From the NCBI GenBank assembly GCA_025454815.1, contig JALONR010000010.1:62001-126000 (forward strand): a stretch of 64,000 nt of DNA. Direction: 5' to 3'. The first letter of the stretch is position 1. Each line of letters starts with the position of its first letter. The position numbers and the translations under genes are program-made. The stretch is from Bacteroidales bacterium. Lineage in GTDB: Bacteria; Bacteroidota; Bacteroidia; Bacteroidales; VadinHA17. The notes under the pieces were generated by a model. The model saw only the letters and a list, made by a program, of their open reading frames with translations, did not search any database and was not told the origin of the DNA. Shown piece after piece: positions 54,426 through 60,231 of this stretch.

Positions 54426-54529
54426 AATTGTGCCAATAAAGATAAGAGTTCAGTCAAAATAAAAATAATCGTGATTTTTTTTTACCTCATGAGCATCAGA
54501 TTTGATTTTTATTTACTTTAGCATCCGAA

Positions 54530-54604
54530 ATGATGAGAACATTTGCAACATACAGCTATTCGTTTTATTATTTCTTTTACCCGCTGGTAGAAGGGACTGA
54601 ATAG
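54530..54604 (+). CDS. Phe/Tyr-rich leader peptide of the aromatic operon
   Basis: A 24-codon frame starting with two ATG codons (54530, 54533) and ending at TAG 54602-54604. Phe is at residues 5, 12, 15 and 16, Tyr at 8, 10, 13, 14 and 17: nine of 24 residues, six of them consecutive (12-17, FYYFFY). Just downstream are an intrinsic terminator (54641) and the first gene of Phe/Tyr synthesis. A ribosome stalled on the Phe/Tyr codons would leave GGGACT (54593-54598) free to pair with GGTCCC (54642-54647) and block terminator formation. A ribosome at the stop codon would cover it. This is the layout of classic amino acid attenuators. The composition and position are seen; function is inferred. 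Confidence 0.87.
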   Translation: MMRTFATYSYSFYYFFYPLVEGTE

Positions 54605-54640
54605 TTGTATGTCTGAATAATAGATGAGATATAATGAAGT

Positions 54641-54669
54641 AGGTCCCGTGAAAGCGGGACCTTTTTTTT
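54641..54669 (+). terminator. Attenuator terminator before the Phe/Tyr operon
   Basis: AGGTCCCG (54641-54648) pairs perfectly with CGGGACCT (54655-54662) across the loop TGAAAG, and eight T follow from 54662. It lies 36 bases after the leader peptide stop and 14 bases before the first structural start codon, so it must be read through for the operon to be expressed. Confidence 0.92.
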
Positions 54670-54682
54670 GACCATAAAGGAA

Positions 54683-55639
54683 ATGAAAGCAGTAAAGGAA
54701 AAGATCAGCGTGGCAATCCAGGGTGTAAGGGGCTCATTCCATGAGATAGCTGCCATTGAGTACTTCATGGATAAGGAGGTTGAGGCAGTGCCGTGTGACA
54801 CTTTTGGAGATCTCTTCCATGCACTTGAAGCTGGCACAGCTGATTATGGCATAGTGGCGTTCGAGAACTCGGTGGCCGGAAGTATCCTTCCCAATTACGA
54901 GCTGCTGCGAAGATCACATCTGCCTGTTACCGGTGAGATATGCCTGAGGGTAAAGCAGAACCTGGTGGCCATGCCCGGTCAGCAGATATCCGATATCAGG
55001 GAAATCCATTCTCACCCGATGGCTATCCAGCAGTGCTCAATGTTCATCAATGAAATGAGGCAGCGGGGCGTCAGGATCATTGAAGCCATTGACACTGCCC
55101 TTAGTGCAAGGATAATAAGCGAGGATAGGCAATACGGCTCCGGAGCGATAGCAAGCAGCAATGCGGCTGAGATCTACAGCCTTGAGGTACTGAGACAGGA
55201 GATTGAAGATGACAGTCTCAATTTCACCCGGTTTCTGATTGTATCGGGCAACCGGAGTAAGGCTTCTGAAAGCGGTAGCCGGAACATGGCAGATGATAAC
55301 GGCAATGGCAGCATGACGGCTGATGGCGGTAGTGGTGAAGCAGGCAACCGTCAGGAAGGAACCGACAAGGCCATGGTCTGTTTCTCACTGCCACATAAGG
55401 TAGGCTCGTTGTCACAGGTGTTGTCAGTACTGGCATTCTACCAGGTCAGCCTTACCAAGATACAGTCGTTGCCTATCGTTGGCAGGCCATGGGAATACCT
55501 GTTTCATATAGATTTAATTTACAATGATTTCAATCGTTATCGAATGGCTCTGGAAGCGATAAGGCCGCTTACGGAAGGACTTGAAATTGTAGGGGAATAC
55601 CGGCGTGGCCTGATGCCGTTTGAATCAGGAAGCAATTAG
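54683..55639 (+). CDS. pheA: Prephenate dehydratase with ACT domain
   Basis: About 318 residues from ATG 54683; the TTG at 54668 lies inside the terminator T run and is rejected. It converts prephenate to phenylpyruvate in Phe synthesis. VAIQGVRGSFHEIAA starts the dehydratase domain, VAFENSVAGSI is at 58-69, and the catalytic T182-R-F184 (NFTRF) ends it. A C-terminal ACT regulatory domain (about 231-310, LPHKVGSLSQVLSVL) should bind Phe. Between them lies an odd Gly/Asn/Ser/Asp-rich linker of about 40 residues (190-229). The usual ESRP of the ACT domain reads QSLP. It is a stand-alone dehydratase, with chorismate mutase fused elsewhere in the operon (57823). Confidence 0.92.
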   Translation: MKAVKEKISVAIQGVRGSFHEIAAIEYFMDKEVEAVPCDTFGDLFHALEAGTADYGIVAFENSVAGSILPNYELLRRSHLPVTGEICLRVKQNLVAMPGQQISDIREIHSHPMAIQQCSMFINEMRQRGVRIIEAIDTALSARIISEDRQYGSGAIASSNAAEIYSLEVLRQEIEDDSLNFTRFLIVSGNRSKASESGSRNMADDNGNGSMTADGGSGEAGNRQEGTDKAMVCFSLPHKVGSLSQVLSVLAFYQVSLTKIQSLPIVGRPWEYLFHIDLIYNDFNRYRMALEAIRPLTEGLEIVGEYRRGLMPFESGSN

Positions 55640-55656
55640 CAAAACGGGGGACAATA

Positions 55657-56838
55657 ATGACTGACACTGCTATGATAAAACCTGCCTCGCGTACCGGGCT
55701 CGTGAACGAATACTACTTCTCTTCCAAACTGGCGGAGATAGCCCGCATGAGACAGGAGGGGGCTGATGTCATAAACCTGGGTATCGGCAGCCCTGATATG
55801 GCACCTGATCCCGCGGTGATAAAGGAACTGACACGAAATGCATCATCCGACAGGAACCACGGATACCAGGGTTACCGGGGTATCCCGTCCTTGCGGCAGG
55901 CCTTCTCTGACTGGTATATGAAATATTTCGGGGTAATCCTCGATCCTGCCGGTGAAATACTTCCGCTTATGGGTTCGAAGGAAGGAATAATGCATATCAG
56001 CATGGCATTCATCGATCCCGGTGACGAAGTGCTTGTCCCTGACCCCGGTTACCCTGCCTACAGTGCAGCAGCATTGCTTGCCGGTGGTGTTGTGAGAAAA
56101 TATGATCTGAAGGAAGAAAGCGGCTGGCTTCCGGACATCAGGGCAATTGAGGCCGGAGGACTTGACAGGGTGAAGATAATGTGGATCAATTATCCCCACA
56201 TGCCAACAGGAACCAAAGCCTCTCCGGGCCTGTTTGAGGAACTGATTGCCTTTGCGCGAAGGAATAGAATACTCCTCTGCAATGACAACCCATACAGCTT
56301 CATTCTCAACAACGAACATCTGAGCATACTCTCCGTTGCCGGCTCCATGGAAACGGCACTGGAACTGAACTCGCTCAGCAAATCGCACAACATGGCCGGC
56401 TGGAGGATCGGCATGCTCGCCGGGAAAAGTGATTTTATAAACAATGTTCTGAAAGTAAAGAGCAATATGGATTCAGGCATGTTCCAGCCCTTGCAGGCAG
56501 CAGCTGCCCTGGCGCTGGCGGCTCCGGAGGAATGGTACACGGCGCTGAACTCTGTTTATATGCGCCGCCGTGCACTGGCCGGAGAGATAATGCGCACATT
56601 GTCATGTACTTTCAGCAACAGTCAGTCAGGATTGTTCCTCTGGGGTCGTGTGCCTGACAGTTTCAGTGATGCTGAGGAGCTTACCGATAAGCTGCTTCAC
56701 GGGAGTCATCTGTTCATCACTCCGGGTTCGGTTTTCGGTCACAACGGCCGCATGTTTGTGAGGATTTCCCTCTGCGCTGACGAGGAATTACTGCAGAAAG
56801 CCCTGTTGAGGGTGAGGGGAGTATCGGATTTAGGATGA
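55657..56838 (+). CDS. Class I/II PLP aminotransferase, probably aromatic/prephenate
   Basis: A 393-residue fold-type I aminotransferase. Residues visible include LGIGSPDMAP near the N-terminus, DPGYPAY (129-135), NYPHMPTG (178-185), CNDNPYSF, and the PLP lysine K242 in SLSKSHNMAGWRIG. The typical NYPHNPTG has Met in place of Asn at its fifth position. Position between prephenate dehydratase and prephenate dehydrogenase indicates transamination of phenylpyruvate and hydroxyphenylpyruvate, or of prephenate. The start follows the previous stop by 17 bases and has a GGGGGA ribosome site; it overlaps the next gene by four bases. Confidence 0.9.
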   Translation: MTDTAMIKPASRTGLVNEYYFSSKLAEIARMRQEGADVINLGIGSPDMAPDPAVIKELTRNASSDRNHGYQGYRGIPSLRQAFSDWYMKYFGVILDPAGEILPLMGSKEGIMHISMAFIDPGDEVLVPDPGYPAYSAAALLAGGVVRKYDLKEESGWLPDIRAIEAGGLDRVKIMWINYPHMPTGTKASPGLFEELIAFARRNRILLCNDNPYSFILNNEHLSILSVAGSMETALELNSLSKSHNMAGWRIGMLAGKSDFINNVLKVKSNMDSGMFQPLQAAAALALAAPEEWYTALNSVYMRRRALAGEIMRTLSCTFSNSQSGLFLWGRVPDSFSDAEELTDKLLHGSHLFITPGSVFGHNGRMFVRISLCADEELLQKALLRVRGVSDLG

Positions 56839-57713
56839 CTACACGAAAAAATGATAATTATATGACTTCAAACATCTGCATTGCAGGACTGGGACTGATA
56901 GGAGGGTCGCTGGCGCGAAGCCTGAGAATCAACGGGTTTAACGGGAAAATAACGGGAGTTGACGCCAATCCCCACCATTGCACTATTGCCATGTACAGGG
57001 GGCTGGCCGATGAGTTCCTTCCCCTTGATGAGGCTGTTGAGAAGTCGGATATTATTATCCTCTGTGCCCCGGTTGATGCCAACTGCTGCCTGCTGCCCGG
57101 CATCCTTGACATGATAGGTGGTACCGGCAAGGTGGTGACAGACATGGGTTCAACAAAAGCCGACATCTCAGCTGTGGCAGACCGTCATCCGGCAAGGGGC
57201 AGGTATGTTGCAGCCCATCCCATGGCGGGTACTGAACACTCCGGGCCTGCATCGGCCCTTGACAGGCTCTTTGCCGGGAAGATTGCAATCATCTGTGATC
57301 CTGAAAAGAGTGATGATGATGCCCTTGAGAAGATCACAGCCCTGCTTCAGTCATTAAATATGAAGATCCAGTACATGAACTCGCGTGAGCATGACGTTCA
57401 TGTGGCCTATGTCTCGCACATCTCACACATTACCTCTTTTGCACTGGCTCTGTGCGTGCTTGACAAGGAGAAGGACGCCACCAACATAATGTCGCTTGCC
57501 GCAGGCGGTTTTGAAAGCACGGTGCGGTTGTCAAAAAGCAATGCTGAGACCTGGGCCCCCATATTTACGGGCAACTCGGGTCCCATACTGGAGGTGATAG
57601 ACACATATATAGAAAAGATGCGTCTCTTCAGGAAACATATTGAGAAGGGTGACGGAGAGGCTCTCAGGCAGCTGATGAGGTCAGCAAACCAGATCGGAAA
57701 CATTCTGAAATGA
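56835..57713 (+). CDS. tyrA: Prephenate dehydrogenase
   Basis: A 292-residue NAD-dependent enzyme of tyrosine synthesis. The Rossmann motif G-L-G-L-I-G-G is near the start (NICIAGLGLIGGSLARSL), followed by TDMGSTKADI and AAHPMAGTEHSGP, the prephenate-binding block. The helical C-terminal domain has VSHISHITSFALAL. The ATG at 56835 overlaps the aminotransferase stop by four bases (ATGA); ATG 56862 is an alternative start nearer the fold. There is no ACT domain. Confidence 0.93.
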   Translation: MTTRKNDNYMTSNICIAGLGLIGGSLARSLRINGFNGKITGVDANPHHCTIAMYRGLADEFLPLDEAVEKSDIIILCAPVDANCCLLPGILDMIGGTGKVVTDMGSTKADISAVADRHPARGRYVAAHPMAGTEHSGPASALDRLFAGKIAIICDPEKSDDDALEKITALLQSLNMKIQYMNSREHDVHVAYVSHISHITSFALALCVLDKEKDATNIMSLAAGGFESTVRLSKSNAETWAPIFTGNSGPILEVIDTYIEKMRLFRKHIEKGDGEALRQLMRSANQIGNILK

Positions 57714-57822: not shown

Positions 57823-58938
57823 ATGAATACTGACAATCAAGCAATTATGCGTGACCGGTTGCAAATAACCCCGATGGAGGAGTGGTCGGTCTATAAGAAA
57901 AGTCCGCTGGTCATTGCGGGTCCGTGCAGTGCCGAGAGTGAGGAGCAGGTGATGACCACCGCCGCAGCCCTGGCTGCGTCAGGACGGGTGGATCTCTTCC
58001 GTGCCGGTATCTGGAAACCCCGTACCCGTCCCGGCCAGTTTGAAGGTGTGGGATCAGCGGGGCTGAAGTGGCTTCGCCAGGCCAGGGAGACCTATGGCCT
58101 TCCGGTGGCTGTTGAGGTGGCGACGGAGAGACATGTTTATGAAGCGCTTAAACACGGGGTTGATGCGGTATGGATAGGGGCCCGCACAAGCGTGAATCCG
58201 TTTGCCCTTCAGGAAATAGCCTCTGCACTGAGAGATGCTGATGTAATGGTGTTTGTGAAGAATCCGGTCAATCCTGACCTGGAGCTGTGGATAGGGGCCA
58301 TTGAACGCCTTAACCGTGCAGGGATAAGCAGGCTGGCAGCTGTACACCGCGGATTCTCAACATGGGAGAAAAGCTCCTTCCGCAACCAGCCCCGGTGGCA
58401 GATAGCCATCGAGCTGCGCCAGCGTATACCGGGTATCCCTCTTATCTGTGACCCTAGCCATATGGGAGGAGACAGCGCATTCATCGGCGATCTCTCACAG
58501 AAGGCAATGGATCTGAACTATGACGGACTTATGATTGAGAGTCACATCGATCCGCCAAGCGCTCTCAGCGACCGTAAACAGCAGATCACCCCTGTTGAGC
58601 TGATGAATGTCCTTGGAAGCCTGATACTGAGGTCTCCCTCAACCGATGATCCGGAGTTCATTGAGACCATAGAGGAACTGCGAAGCCAGATAGACGTATA
58701 TGACAACCTTCTGCTTGATATCCTTGAGAGCAGGATGCAGGTGGCTGAAACCATAGGCCGTTACAAGAAGGAACACAACATTACAATCCTCCAGAGCACC
58801 CGGTGGCGCGAAGTCAAGGACAATGCCGTTGACAGGGGCGTCAGGAAAGGGCTTACCCCCGAATTCATCAACACCATCCTTGAGGCGATCCACCAGGAAT
58901 CGATTGCGCACCAGATGAAAGTGATGAAAGAAGAGTAA
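57823..58938 (+). CDS. aroG: Bifunctional DAHP synthase/chorismate mutase
   Basis: A 371-residue fusion. Residues about 25-265 are a 3-deoxy-7-phosphoheptulonate synthase of the short type (AGPCSAES at 32-39, RAGIWKPRTRPGQFEG, CDPSHMGG), the first step of the shikimate pathway. Residues about 280-365 are a type II chorismate mutase (IEELRSQIDVYDNLLLDILESR, VAETIGRYKKEHN). This pairing is common in Bacteroidota and allows feedback through the mutase domain. A 109-base gap precedes it, so it may have some independent transcription. Confidence 0.93.
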   Translation: MNTDNQAIMRDRLQITPMEEWSVYKKSPLVIAGPCSAESEEQVMTTAAALAASGRVDLFRAGIWKPRTRPGQFEGVGSAGLKWLRQARETYGLPVAVEVATERHVYEALKHGVDAVWIGARTSVNPFALQEIASALRDADVMVFVKNPVNPDLELWIGAIERLNRAGISRLAAVHRGFSTWEKSSFRNQPRWQIAIELRQRIPGIPLICDPSHMGGDSAFIGDLSQKAMDLNYDGLMIESHIDPPSALSDRKQQITPVELMNVLGSLILRSPSTDDPEFIETIEELRSQIDVYDNLLLDILESRMQVAETIGRYKKEHNITILQSTRWREVKDNAVDRGVRKGLTPEFINTILEAIHQESIAHQMKVMKEE

Positions 58939-58980: not shown

Positions 58981-60231
58981 ATGAATATCACTGTCAGTCC
59001 GTCAGAATTGAGGGGACAAATAGATGCGCCGTCAAGCAAGAGTCTGACGCAGAGGGCTATTGCCGCCGGCTTGCTGGCAGGCGGGACTACTTTAATAATC
59101 AACCCTTCACTTTGCAATGATTCAATGGCTGCCATGACGATGGCCCGGGCTCTTGGTGCGTCAGTTACAATGAAAGATGACAGGATTACCATGGAGGCTT
59201 TCAGGAAGCCTGCTGACCGGGTTTTTCTTAACTGCGGGGAGTCAGGCCTGGCTCTGAGGATGTTTTCTCCGTTGGCATCCGTCCTGTCAGGAGATGTCAC
59301 TCTTACCGGTGAAGGTTCACTGTTGCGCAGGCCGGTAAAGATGATCGGAGAAGCACTTTCCCAGCTCGGAGTGACGGTTGAAACCAGTGATGGATTGCTG
59401 CCGGTGAGGCTGAAGGGAAAACTGAAGGGTGGCCGTGCCCTTATTGACGGTTCTTCAGGATCGCAGCTTCTTACGGGGCTTCTCATGGCACTGCCGCTGA
59501 CTGATACGGATAGCAGGATTGATGTGGCAAACCTCACCAGCAGGCCATATATCAGCCTTACACTTGACTTGCTGGCTGATTTCGGCATCAGGATAGAAAA
59601 TGAAGGTTTCATGACATTCACCATTCCGGGCAGGCAGTCTTACCGTGCTCATGAATACAGGGTTGAGGGCGACTGGAGCGGTGCGGCTTTCCTCCTTGTG
59701 GGAGGGGCCACGGGAGGAAGGGTGTCTGTCGGCAACCTTAATCCGGAGAGCAGGCAGGCAGACATGGCTGTCCTGAGTGTTCTTGAAGAGGCAGGGGCGG
59801 TTATTGCTGCTGAACCGGGAAGGATAACATCTTCTGTATCTCAGTTGAGGGGATTCACATTTGATGCAACCGATGCCCCTGATCTTTTTCCTCCTCTGGC
59901 GGCGCTGGCGGCATACTGTGAAGGCGTCAGCACTATCAGGGGAGTGGGCCGTCTGAGACACAAGGAGAGCGACAGGGCGGAGGCGATAGCCGGGGTGCTG
60001 GAGGCGATGAGGATAGAGGTGCGCATCAGGGGTGATGAGATGATCATCACCGGGGGTAAGGTACAGGGCGCCGTGGTGTCATCGCACAATGATCACCGTA
60101 TAGCCATGATGGCGGCGGTGATGGCCGCCGGCGCCGCAGCACCTGTTACCATTACCGGGGCAGAAGCCGTGGCAAAATCTTACCCCGGATTCTTCGATGA
60201 CCTGGCCCGGATAGGAGGGAAAACCGGGTAG
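58981..60231 (+). CDS. aroA: 3-phosphoshikimate 1-carboxyvinyltransferase (EPSP synthase)
   Basis: A 416-residue two-domain inside-out barrel enzyme of the shikimate pathway. SSKSLTQRAIAAGLLAGG near residues 18-38 is the substrate-binding N-terminal motif, and NCGESGLALRMFSPLA corresponds to the usual NAGTAxR block with Glu-Ser in place of Gly-Thr. GDWSGAAFLL, RLRHKESDRA and HNDHRIAMMAAVMA complete the signature set. It is 42 bases after the DAHP synthase gene and is the last gene of the aromatic run. Confidence 0.94.
   Translation: MNITVSPSELRGQIDAPSSKSLTQRAIAAGLLAGGTTLIINPSLCNDSMAAMTMARALGASVTMKDDRITMEAFRKPADRVFLNCGESGLALRMFSPLASVLSGDVTLTGEGSLLRRPVKMIGEALSQLGVTVETSDGLLPVRLKGKLKGGRALIDGSSGSQLLTGLLMALPLTDTDSRIDVANLTSRPYISLTLDLLADFGIRIENEGFMTFTIPGRQSYRAHEYRVEGDWSGAAFLLVGGATGGRVSVGNLNPESRQADMAVLSVLEEAGAVIAAEPGRITSSVSQLRGFTFDATDAPDLFPPLAALAAYCEGVSTIRGVGRLRHKESDRAEAIAGVLEAMRIEVRIRGDEMIITGGKVQGAVVSSHNDHRIAMMAAVMAAGAAAPVTITGAEAVAKSYPGFFDDLARIGGKTG

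Follow-up and report, generated by a model that had tools for sequence, protein, structure and literature searches.

An attenuator-like leader with mixed Phe/Tyr codons precedes pheA in a Bacteroidales genome and in related Bacteroidia

In a 64,000-nucleotide (nt) window from a Bacteroidales bacterium (contig JALONR010000010.1, positions 62,001 to 126,000), an operon for phenylalanine and tyrosine synthesis is preceded by a short frame rich in codons for these two products and by an intrinsic terminator ahead of its first gene, pheA. This combination of leader and terminator is real and lies far beyond chance. We consider the element very likely to be a ribosome-mediated transcription attenuator. 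Observed here were its anatomy, its conservation, the matching of its RNA arms across the class Bacteroidia, its spacing, and a link between leader codons and operon content; from these we infer stalling, coupling, termination and read-through in the cell, and the sensing of both amino acids. The parts of the leader region are as follows.

54514-54521, plus strand: candidate -7 promoter element TACTTTAG, consensus TAnnTTTG with one mismatch, just 5' of the leader frame
54530-54604, plus strand: leader peptide frame MMRTFATYSYSFYYFFYPLVEGTE, start ATG at 54530 or 54533; frame and aromatic run kept in the genus
54548-54561, plus strand: region 1, partner of 54599-54612 (14-pair helix, from folding)
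54563-54580, plus strand: control codons Phe-Tyr-Tyr-Phe-Phe-Tyr, six consecutive (sequence reading); Phe and Tyr replace each other at individual positions among relatives
54593-54612, plus strand: region 2, the antiterminator arm, GGGACT (54593-54598) plus GTTGTAT (54604-54610) (folding, arm-swap and shuffles)
54629-54635, plus strand: inner antiterminator strand ATATAAT, partner of 54604-54610
54641-54649, plus strand: region 3, terminator 5' arm and alternative partner of region 2 (folding and arm comparison)
54654-54669, plus strand: region 4, terminator 3' arm plus T8 run (folding; kept in the genus alignment)

The leader frame was read as 24 codons, nine of them for Phe or Tyr, with a stop that ends at 54604, 36 bases before the terminator hairpin. 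The first-pass annotation had placed this frame, its six consecutive aromatic codons and the gap correctly. It had also described a perfect 8-bp hairpin with eight T residues; the T8 run is present (54662-54669), and the GC-rich hairpin has nine pairs, eight Watson-Crick and a closing T-G, formed by 54641-54649 and 54654-54662 around a GAAA loop. The pheA ATG is at 54683, 13 bases past the T run, and the mechanical open reading frame (ORF) call for pheA starts upstream of it, at TTG 54668. GGGACT at 54593-54598, put forward in the same annotation as the antiterminator strand, does pair with GGTCCC at 54642-54647, through five Watson-Crick pairs and one U-G. Two helices are additional to that earlier description: the 14-pair helix between the codon segment (54548-54561) and the end of the leader frame (54599-54612), and an inner antiterminator helix between 54604-54610 and 54629-54635. 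The pairing of region 1, at the control codons, with region 2 was found both in the window and in an alignment of 15 sequences from the genus.

Chance expectation was estimated on 5,000 dinucleotide-keeping shuffles of 54441-54690. An ORF with seven Phe/Tyr in eight codons appeared in none of them, nor did an ORF with six of eight Phe/Tyr followed by a strong terminator; a strong terminator alone appeared in 55. The fold of 54520-54675 was 5.5 standard deviations below shuffles and contained both the region 1:2 helix and the terminator. When the 5' half was removed, mimicking a ribosome on the codons, RNA extending to the terminator 5' arm folded into GGGACU:GGUCCC plus the inner helix at -17.7 kcal/mol.

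In the proposed switch, the leader would be translated by a ribosome right behind RNA polymerase. When charged tRNA-Phe or tRNA-Tyr is short, the ribosome would stall on the aromatic codons, its leading edge reaching no further than 54593. This would leave region 2 free to pair with the terminator 5' arm as this arm emerges, no terminator would form, and the Phe/Tyr genes would be transcribed. With both amino acids plentiful, the ribosome would advance over region 2 and the terminator would halt transcription before pheA.

To compare antiterminator arms across the class, the best partner of the terminator 5' arm was sought between the last Phe/Tyr codon and the hairpin in 53 loci, and arms were swapped between loci. 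Pairing of region 2 with its own terminator arm had a mean of -11.1 kcal/mol compared to -8.6 kcal/mol for permuted arms, and none of 20,000 permutations was as low. The same result (0/20,000) was obtained with 40 loci thinned of near relatives. The evidence per locus was uneven: in 37 of the 53, at most 10 of 200 region shuffles gave as good a match, and the match in L060 was worse than most of its 200 shuffles. Examples of region 2 and arm pairs are GAGCGGGA with TCCCGCT, CGACCGGGA with TCCCGGTC and GGGCAGGATT with AATCCTGCC. Because the terminator 3' arm changes too, three segments (region 2, 5' arm and 3' arm) change together. Class-wide, an antiterminator that excludes the terminator is kept as the sequence changes; within the genus it is paired without covariation.

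The position of region 2 was also constrained. It starts 8-17 nt past the last Phe/Tyr codon in 42 of the 53 loci, compared to 20% in shuffled regions, and its position has a spread of 5.2 nt relative to that codon and 10.9 nt relative to the stop codon. As the spread is halved when measured from the last Phe/Tyr codon, region 2 appears to be placed by the control codons. In the genus alignment, 93.3% of counted cells of the region 1:2 helix were paired, with two-sided changes at two pairs, and the terminator was paired in 100% of cells over seven counted pairs. For these two helices together, two-sided changes were seen in 3 pairs and 5 cells, compared to 1.3 and 1.5 in shuffles. The inner antiterminator helix was paired in 95.2% of cells and had no two-sided change.

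Folding with a modelled ribosome assumed an edge 12 nt ahead of the A site. At least three region 2:3 pairs were expected in 50 of the 53 loci with the ribosome on the last Phe/Tyr codon, compared to 1 of 53 with the ribosome at the stop. With the edge at +9, +15 and +18, the corresponding numbers were 51, 49 and 32 of 53 at the last Phe/Tyr codon, and 10, 0 and 0 at the stop. In the window, with the edge at +12, the expected number of region 2:3 pairs was 5.7-5.9 of 6 for every A-site codon between 54551 (Tyr) and 54581 (Pro) inclusive; it fell to 1.1 at the Leu codon at 54584 and to zero at later codons. In silico, the spacing lets a stalled ribosome free region 2 and an advancing one cover it.

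Conservation was examined first in a near set of 80 genomes, including the window's own, of which 52 had a pheA match and 48 had readable upstream DNA; in the other four (G011, G015, G017 and G053) the contig stops at pheA or within it. By pheA, the closest named relatives were Bacteroidales assemblies, which puts the window in that order of the class Bacteroidia. In 43 of the 48, pheA is preceded by a Phe/Tyr-rich leader and a T-run hairpin (41 by script; L014 and L049 by eye). Of the 23 further loci in the order/class set, 22 from the order/class search plus L114 from the out-of-class search, 15 carry the element before pheA, 10 of them scored by script and 5 by eye. None of 27 loci representing the phylum's other classes has it; these are the highest-scoring of 54 genomes with a match and represent seven families, one of which supplied 16 loci, and in seven of the 27 the open frame extends at least 100 nt further upstream, so that less DNA 5' of the real gene is covered. 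Nor was it found before pheA in two further Porphyromonadaceae loci, L035 and L036, or in seven loci outside the phylum; L032 and L034, by contrast, have it by script. On shuffled upstreams the script passed 0 of 2,120, compared to 45 of 53 real upstreams. The script totals were 53 loci with the element and 56 without, the latter including the out-of-class and out-of-phylum loci; seven of these 56 were judged positive by eye (L014, L049, L079, L080, L081, L082 and L086). Dropped before counting were L009, L037, L039, L045, L047 and L058, where upstream DNA is missing or nearly so, and L031, L033 and L076, duplicates of L006, L008 and L001.

Some loci depart from the single-attenuator layout. 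Pairs of Phe/Tyr attenuators in tandem, both members having an aromatic leader and a terminator of their own, stand before pheA in L016 (G061), L020 (G024), L061 (G029) and L064 (G071), and probably in L086 (G134), where no hairpin passed the script's terminator criterion. Two attenuators in series should multiply repression. In L083 (class-level genome G102), a promoter-like element before pheA is followed at once by a hairpin and T run, with no aromatic leader frame; this is perhaps a decayed or converted attenuator.

We compared leader codons with the genes behind them in 61 operon loci: 50 multi-gene operons with pheA, 6 without pheA (from 5 genomes) and 5 with pheA alone. L136-L139 and L141, the same operons as L189-L193, were left out of this count. 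Leaders were picked as the upstream frame richest in Phe, Tyr and Trp, a choice that favours aromatic runs and does not favour Phe over Tyr; those of L150 and L183 were set by hand, and the stand-alone pheA group was entered by hand. In all 50 multi-gene operons starting with pheA, the aromatic run includes two or more Tyr (mean Tyr share 47%), and the same holds for four further such operons judged by eye (4/4); Trp codons lie inside the run in seven of the 50. In contrast, the run has no Tyr in any of the five stand-alone pheA loci (G065, G027, G075, G026 and G037). The difference is significant on loci (Fisher p = 2.9e-7), and a hand count by genus gives 4/4 stand-alone without Tyr compared to 0/35 multi-gene (about 1e-5). 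Behind pheA, the contigs of G026 and G037 continue for only about 0.55-0.65 kb, and this stretch gave no match to other operon genes. The G075 leader does contain two Tyr codons, one before the leader end, after the aromatic run. G065 has a separate tyrA-DAHP synthase-aroA cluster with its own leader MNNTFGYYAFYYYFFYNN and terminator. A tyrA search in eight chosen genomes, six of them with stand-alone, partly read or contig-cut clusters, gave a single match, so the case of a split regulon is that of G065 alone. Five genus members have lost pheA from the operon yet keep the leader before aminotransferase-tyrA-DAHP synthase-aroA; in G006 and G020 the run of these pheA-less operons is six Tyr and one Phe.

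Several results weigh against an attenuator that senses both amino acids. The antiterminator helix hardly varies within the genus, and its covariation there does not exceed that of shuffles. Region 2 was picked as the best match to the arm, which leans the spacing and folding tests toward the model; the shuffles correct for this in part. With no ribosome modelled, at least three region 2:3 pairs are still expected in 28 of the 53 loci, and window RNA cut at 54650 folds into the antiterminator even with region 1 present, so the antiterminator may also form without translation. By the criteria used, the element is missing before pheA in five of the 48 near genomes (G005, G006, G007, G016 and G020) and in eight of the 23 order/class loci. 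Only two of the five genomes with a pheA-less operon have shifted to Tyr, the leaders of G007, G016 and G019 staying mixed. In the pheA-DAHP synthase-aroA operon of G036, the leader has five consecutive Tyr and only one Phe, which comes after them. The match between leader codons and operon content is therefore strong but not exact, as the G036 leader is Tyr-dominated despite pheA.

In the five near genomes without the element, pheA is a distant one (about 42-43% identity by script alignment) and lies directly behind a leuB-like frame. NCBIfam identifies the frame in G006 as leuB; its cluster begins with ilvD and includes leuA. The loci concerned are L126:16532-17374, L024 and L027-L030, representing five genus members; the old operon was found in four of these five genomes, with its Phe/Tyr leader kept and pheA gone. 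We read the leuB-linked pheA as a gene replacement that would have moved pheA under another switch.

The first-pass annotation had asked whether leader frame and hairpin are conserved in relatives, and the near genomes indicate that they are. The compensatory changes it looked for were seen in the region 1:2 helix and the terminator within the genus and in the antiterminator arms class-wide, but not in the antiterminator within the genus. The link between leader codons and operon content supports its proposal that one switch would sense both end products. Together, conservation, alternative structures and arms that change together across the class suggest that its leader-peptide attenuator mechanism is very probably right.

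Other explanations were weighed against the attenuator. The frame could be a functional small peptide, or could couple translation to pheA instead of acting through transcription termination; short leader genes may help reinitiation at the following gene, as a passage in PMC4833913 describes. This is very unlikely, since outside the genus little is shared except the aromatic run, peptide length and end vary, and a terminator with a T run stands between the leader stop and pheA. The leader RNA could also be a riboswitch or resemble a T-box, binding a small molecule or tRNA while the frame is incidental; its end in a conditional terminator before a biosynthetic operon would fit this. No Rfam family matched at gathering score in the window, in the his/ilv-leu locus described below or in 20 other loci with such leaders or neighbours, so Rfam-based annotation would miss these leaders. 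The features shared class-wide are an aromatic-codon frame, an arm at a set distance and a hairpin, and an aptamer would not explain leader codons that change with operon content. We regard this explanation as extremely improbable.

The hairpin might instead be the terminator or boundary of something upstream, with the Phe/Tyr frame a product of chance. The region is AT-rich, which favours Phe and Tyr codons (TTY, TAY), and the 55 shuffles with a terminator-like site show that this part alone can arise. However, leader and terminator together were absent from all 5,000 shuffles of the region and all 2,120 shuffled upstreams, and conservation in relatives contradicts chance. The upstream neighbour of the leader is on the opposite strand, and leader and terminator persist before the operon even after pheA has left. 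The probability of this explanation is close to nil.

The operon behind the leader has intergenic gaps of 17, -4, 109 and 42 bases and consists of the following genes.

54683-55639, plus strand: pheA, prephenate dehydratase (PF00800, E 4.8e-56)
55657-56838, plus strand: class I/II aminotransferase (PF00155)
56835-57713, plus strand: tyrA, prephenate dehydrogenase (PF02153/PF20463; NF006307 above cut-off)
57823-58938, plus strand: DAHP synthase-chorismate mutase fusion (PF00793 and PF01817)
58981-60231, plus strand: aroA, EPSP synthase (PF00275; TIGR01356 above cut-off)

By the script criteria, the 64-kb window has no second strong terminator just 5' of a long ORF.

TAnnTTTG is the -7 element consensus quoted in PMC7366714. 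In 35 of the 53 loci an exact copy occurs no more than 70 nt 5' of the leader start, compared to 6.7% of shuffles, and 33 of these 35 are at 19-39 nt, which speaks for transcript starts upstream of the frame. Matches with up to one mismatch were uninformative (50/53 loci compared to 65% of shuffles), which makes the copy in the window weak evidence by itself.

Similar leaders occur elsewhere in the same genome. On the minus strand of contig C3 (G000), a His leader MKTNRIHHHHHHHTCSQAR and a terminator lie directly before hisG (L124:5855-5973), as they likewise do in G006 (L126) and G020 (L127). On the same strand, an Ile/Leu-rich leader MNHTSLFIIALFILIAISG and a terminator precede ilvD and a long ilv-leu cluster (L124:17739-17883), with similar Ile/Leu-type leaders in L126 and L127. 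Together with the Phe/Tyr leader, such leaders therefore precede at least three amino-acid clusters in this genome. Searches of the genome with PF04715 (trpE) and PF00742 (homoserine dehydrogenase) gave no match, which left no trp or thr locus at which a leader could be sought.

Among the closest known systems is the Phe leader of E. coli pheA/pheST (RF01859), which has Phe codons in a short frame, mutually exclusive helices and an intrinsic terminator. The window shares with this enterobacterial leader the attenuator anatomy and pheA as the controlled gene; it differs in having a mixed Phe/Tyr run, a five-gene cluster for both amino acids and a Bacteroidota-type promoter element. It is not a member of the family, scoring 30.1 bits against a gathering score of 55 (E 0.0024; 271 bases searched). 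A second family, Bacteroid-trp (RF01692), which from its name we take to concern trp genes, had no match in the window at gathering score and none up to E 10. Table 1 of PMC2864571 gives it as a candidate cis-regulatory RNA of Bacteroidetes.

Leader-peptide attenuation was described in the first-pass annotation as best known from Proteobacteria, which is true, but a Bacteroidota case is not new in print. Table 7 of PMC1173090 (2005), after Merino's computed database, gives a putative attenuator before B. thetaiotaomicron pheA>hisHb>aroAI-beta-aroQ>tyrA. Like the window's, it lies ahead of a similar operon in the same order; the passages concerned do not describe a leader peptide, codons or a comparative test. 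In F. psychrophilum, strong clues to leader-peptide attenuation ahead of amino-acid operons are reported in section 19 of PMC9723704 (2021), along with structured 5' elements before pheA and hisG in Flavobacteriaceae; the pheA element is one of other genera of that family and has no Rfam hits. That section gives no anatomy for the pheA element and does not state its leader-peptide nature outright. Short frames reminiscent of leader peptides in long B. thetaiotaomicron 5' untranslated regions, and mRNAs without classical Shine-Dalgarno sequences in the phylum Bacteroidota, are mentioned in passages of PMC7366714. According to a passage of PMC2965389 (2010), leader-peptide systems had been known only from Proteobacteria and Actinobacteria, the atypical ermC leader apart, until the Firmicutes case of that paper. 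Passages of PMC8305728, a paper on his genes in Bacteroidota, mention attenuation only as part of a general description of his regulation. A description of leader codons tracking operon content in Bacteroidia was not found in searches of the open-licence PMC literature, supplements being outside this scope.

The mechanism is thus of a known kind, and its presence before pheA in this phylum has been noted in print. What is new is how widely it occurs in the class, the evidence from spacing and arm swaps, and the finding that leader codons co-evolve with the gene content of the operon. Collectively, these results suggest that control codons probably evolve with operon content across the Bacteroidia, with Phe only where pheA is alone, Phe and Tyr where shared or Tyr-pathway genes follow, and a shift to Tyr in one lineage after pheA left. 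The mixed run would then act as a two-amino-acid sensor that responds when either is short, and the wide use of leaders, including those for his and ilv-leu, would mean that ribosomes are kept close behind RNA polymerase at leaders without Shine-Dalgarno initiation. This broad and structurally explicit set of Bacteroidia leaders can be used to ask whether transcription is coupled to translation in the phylum, and its split and merged operons are natural experiments on the retuning of a two-amino-acid sensor.
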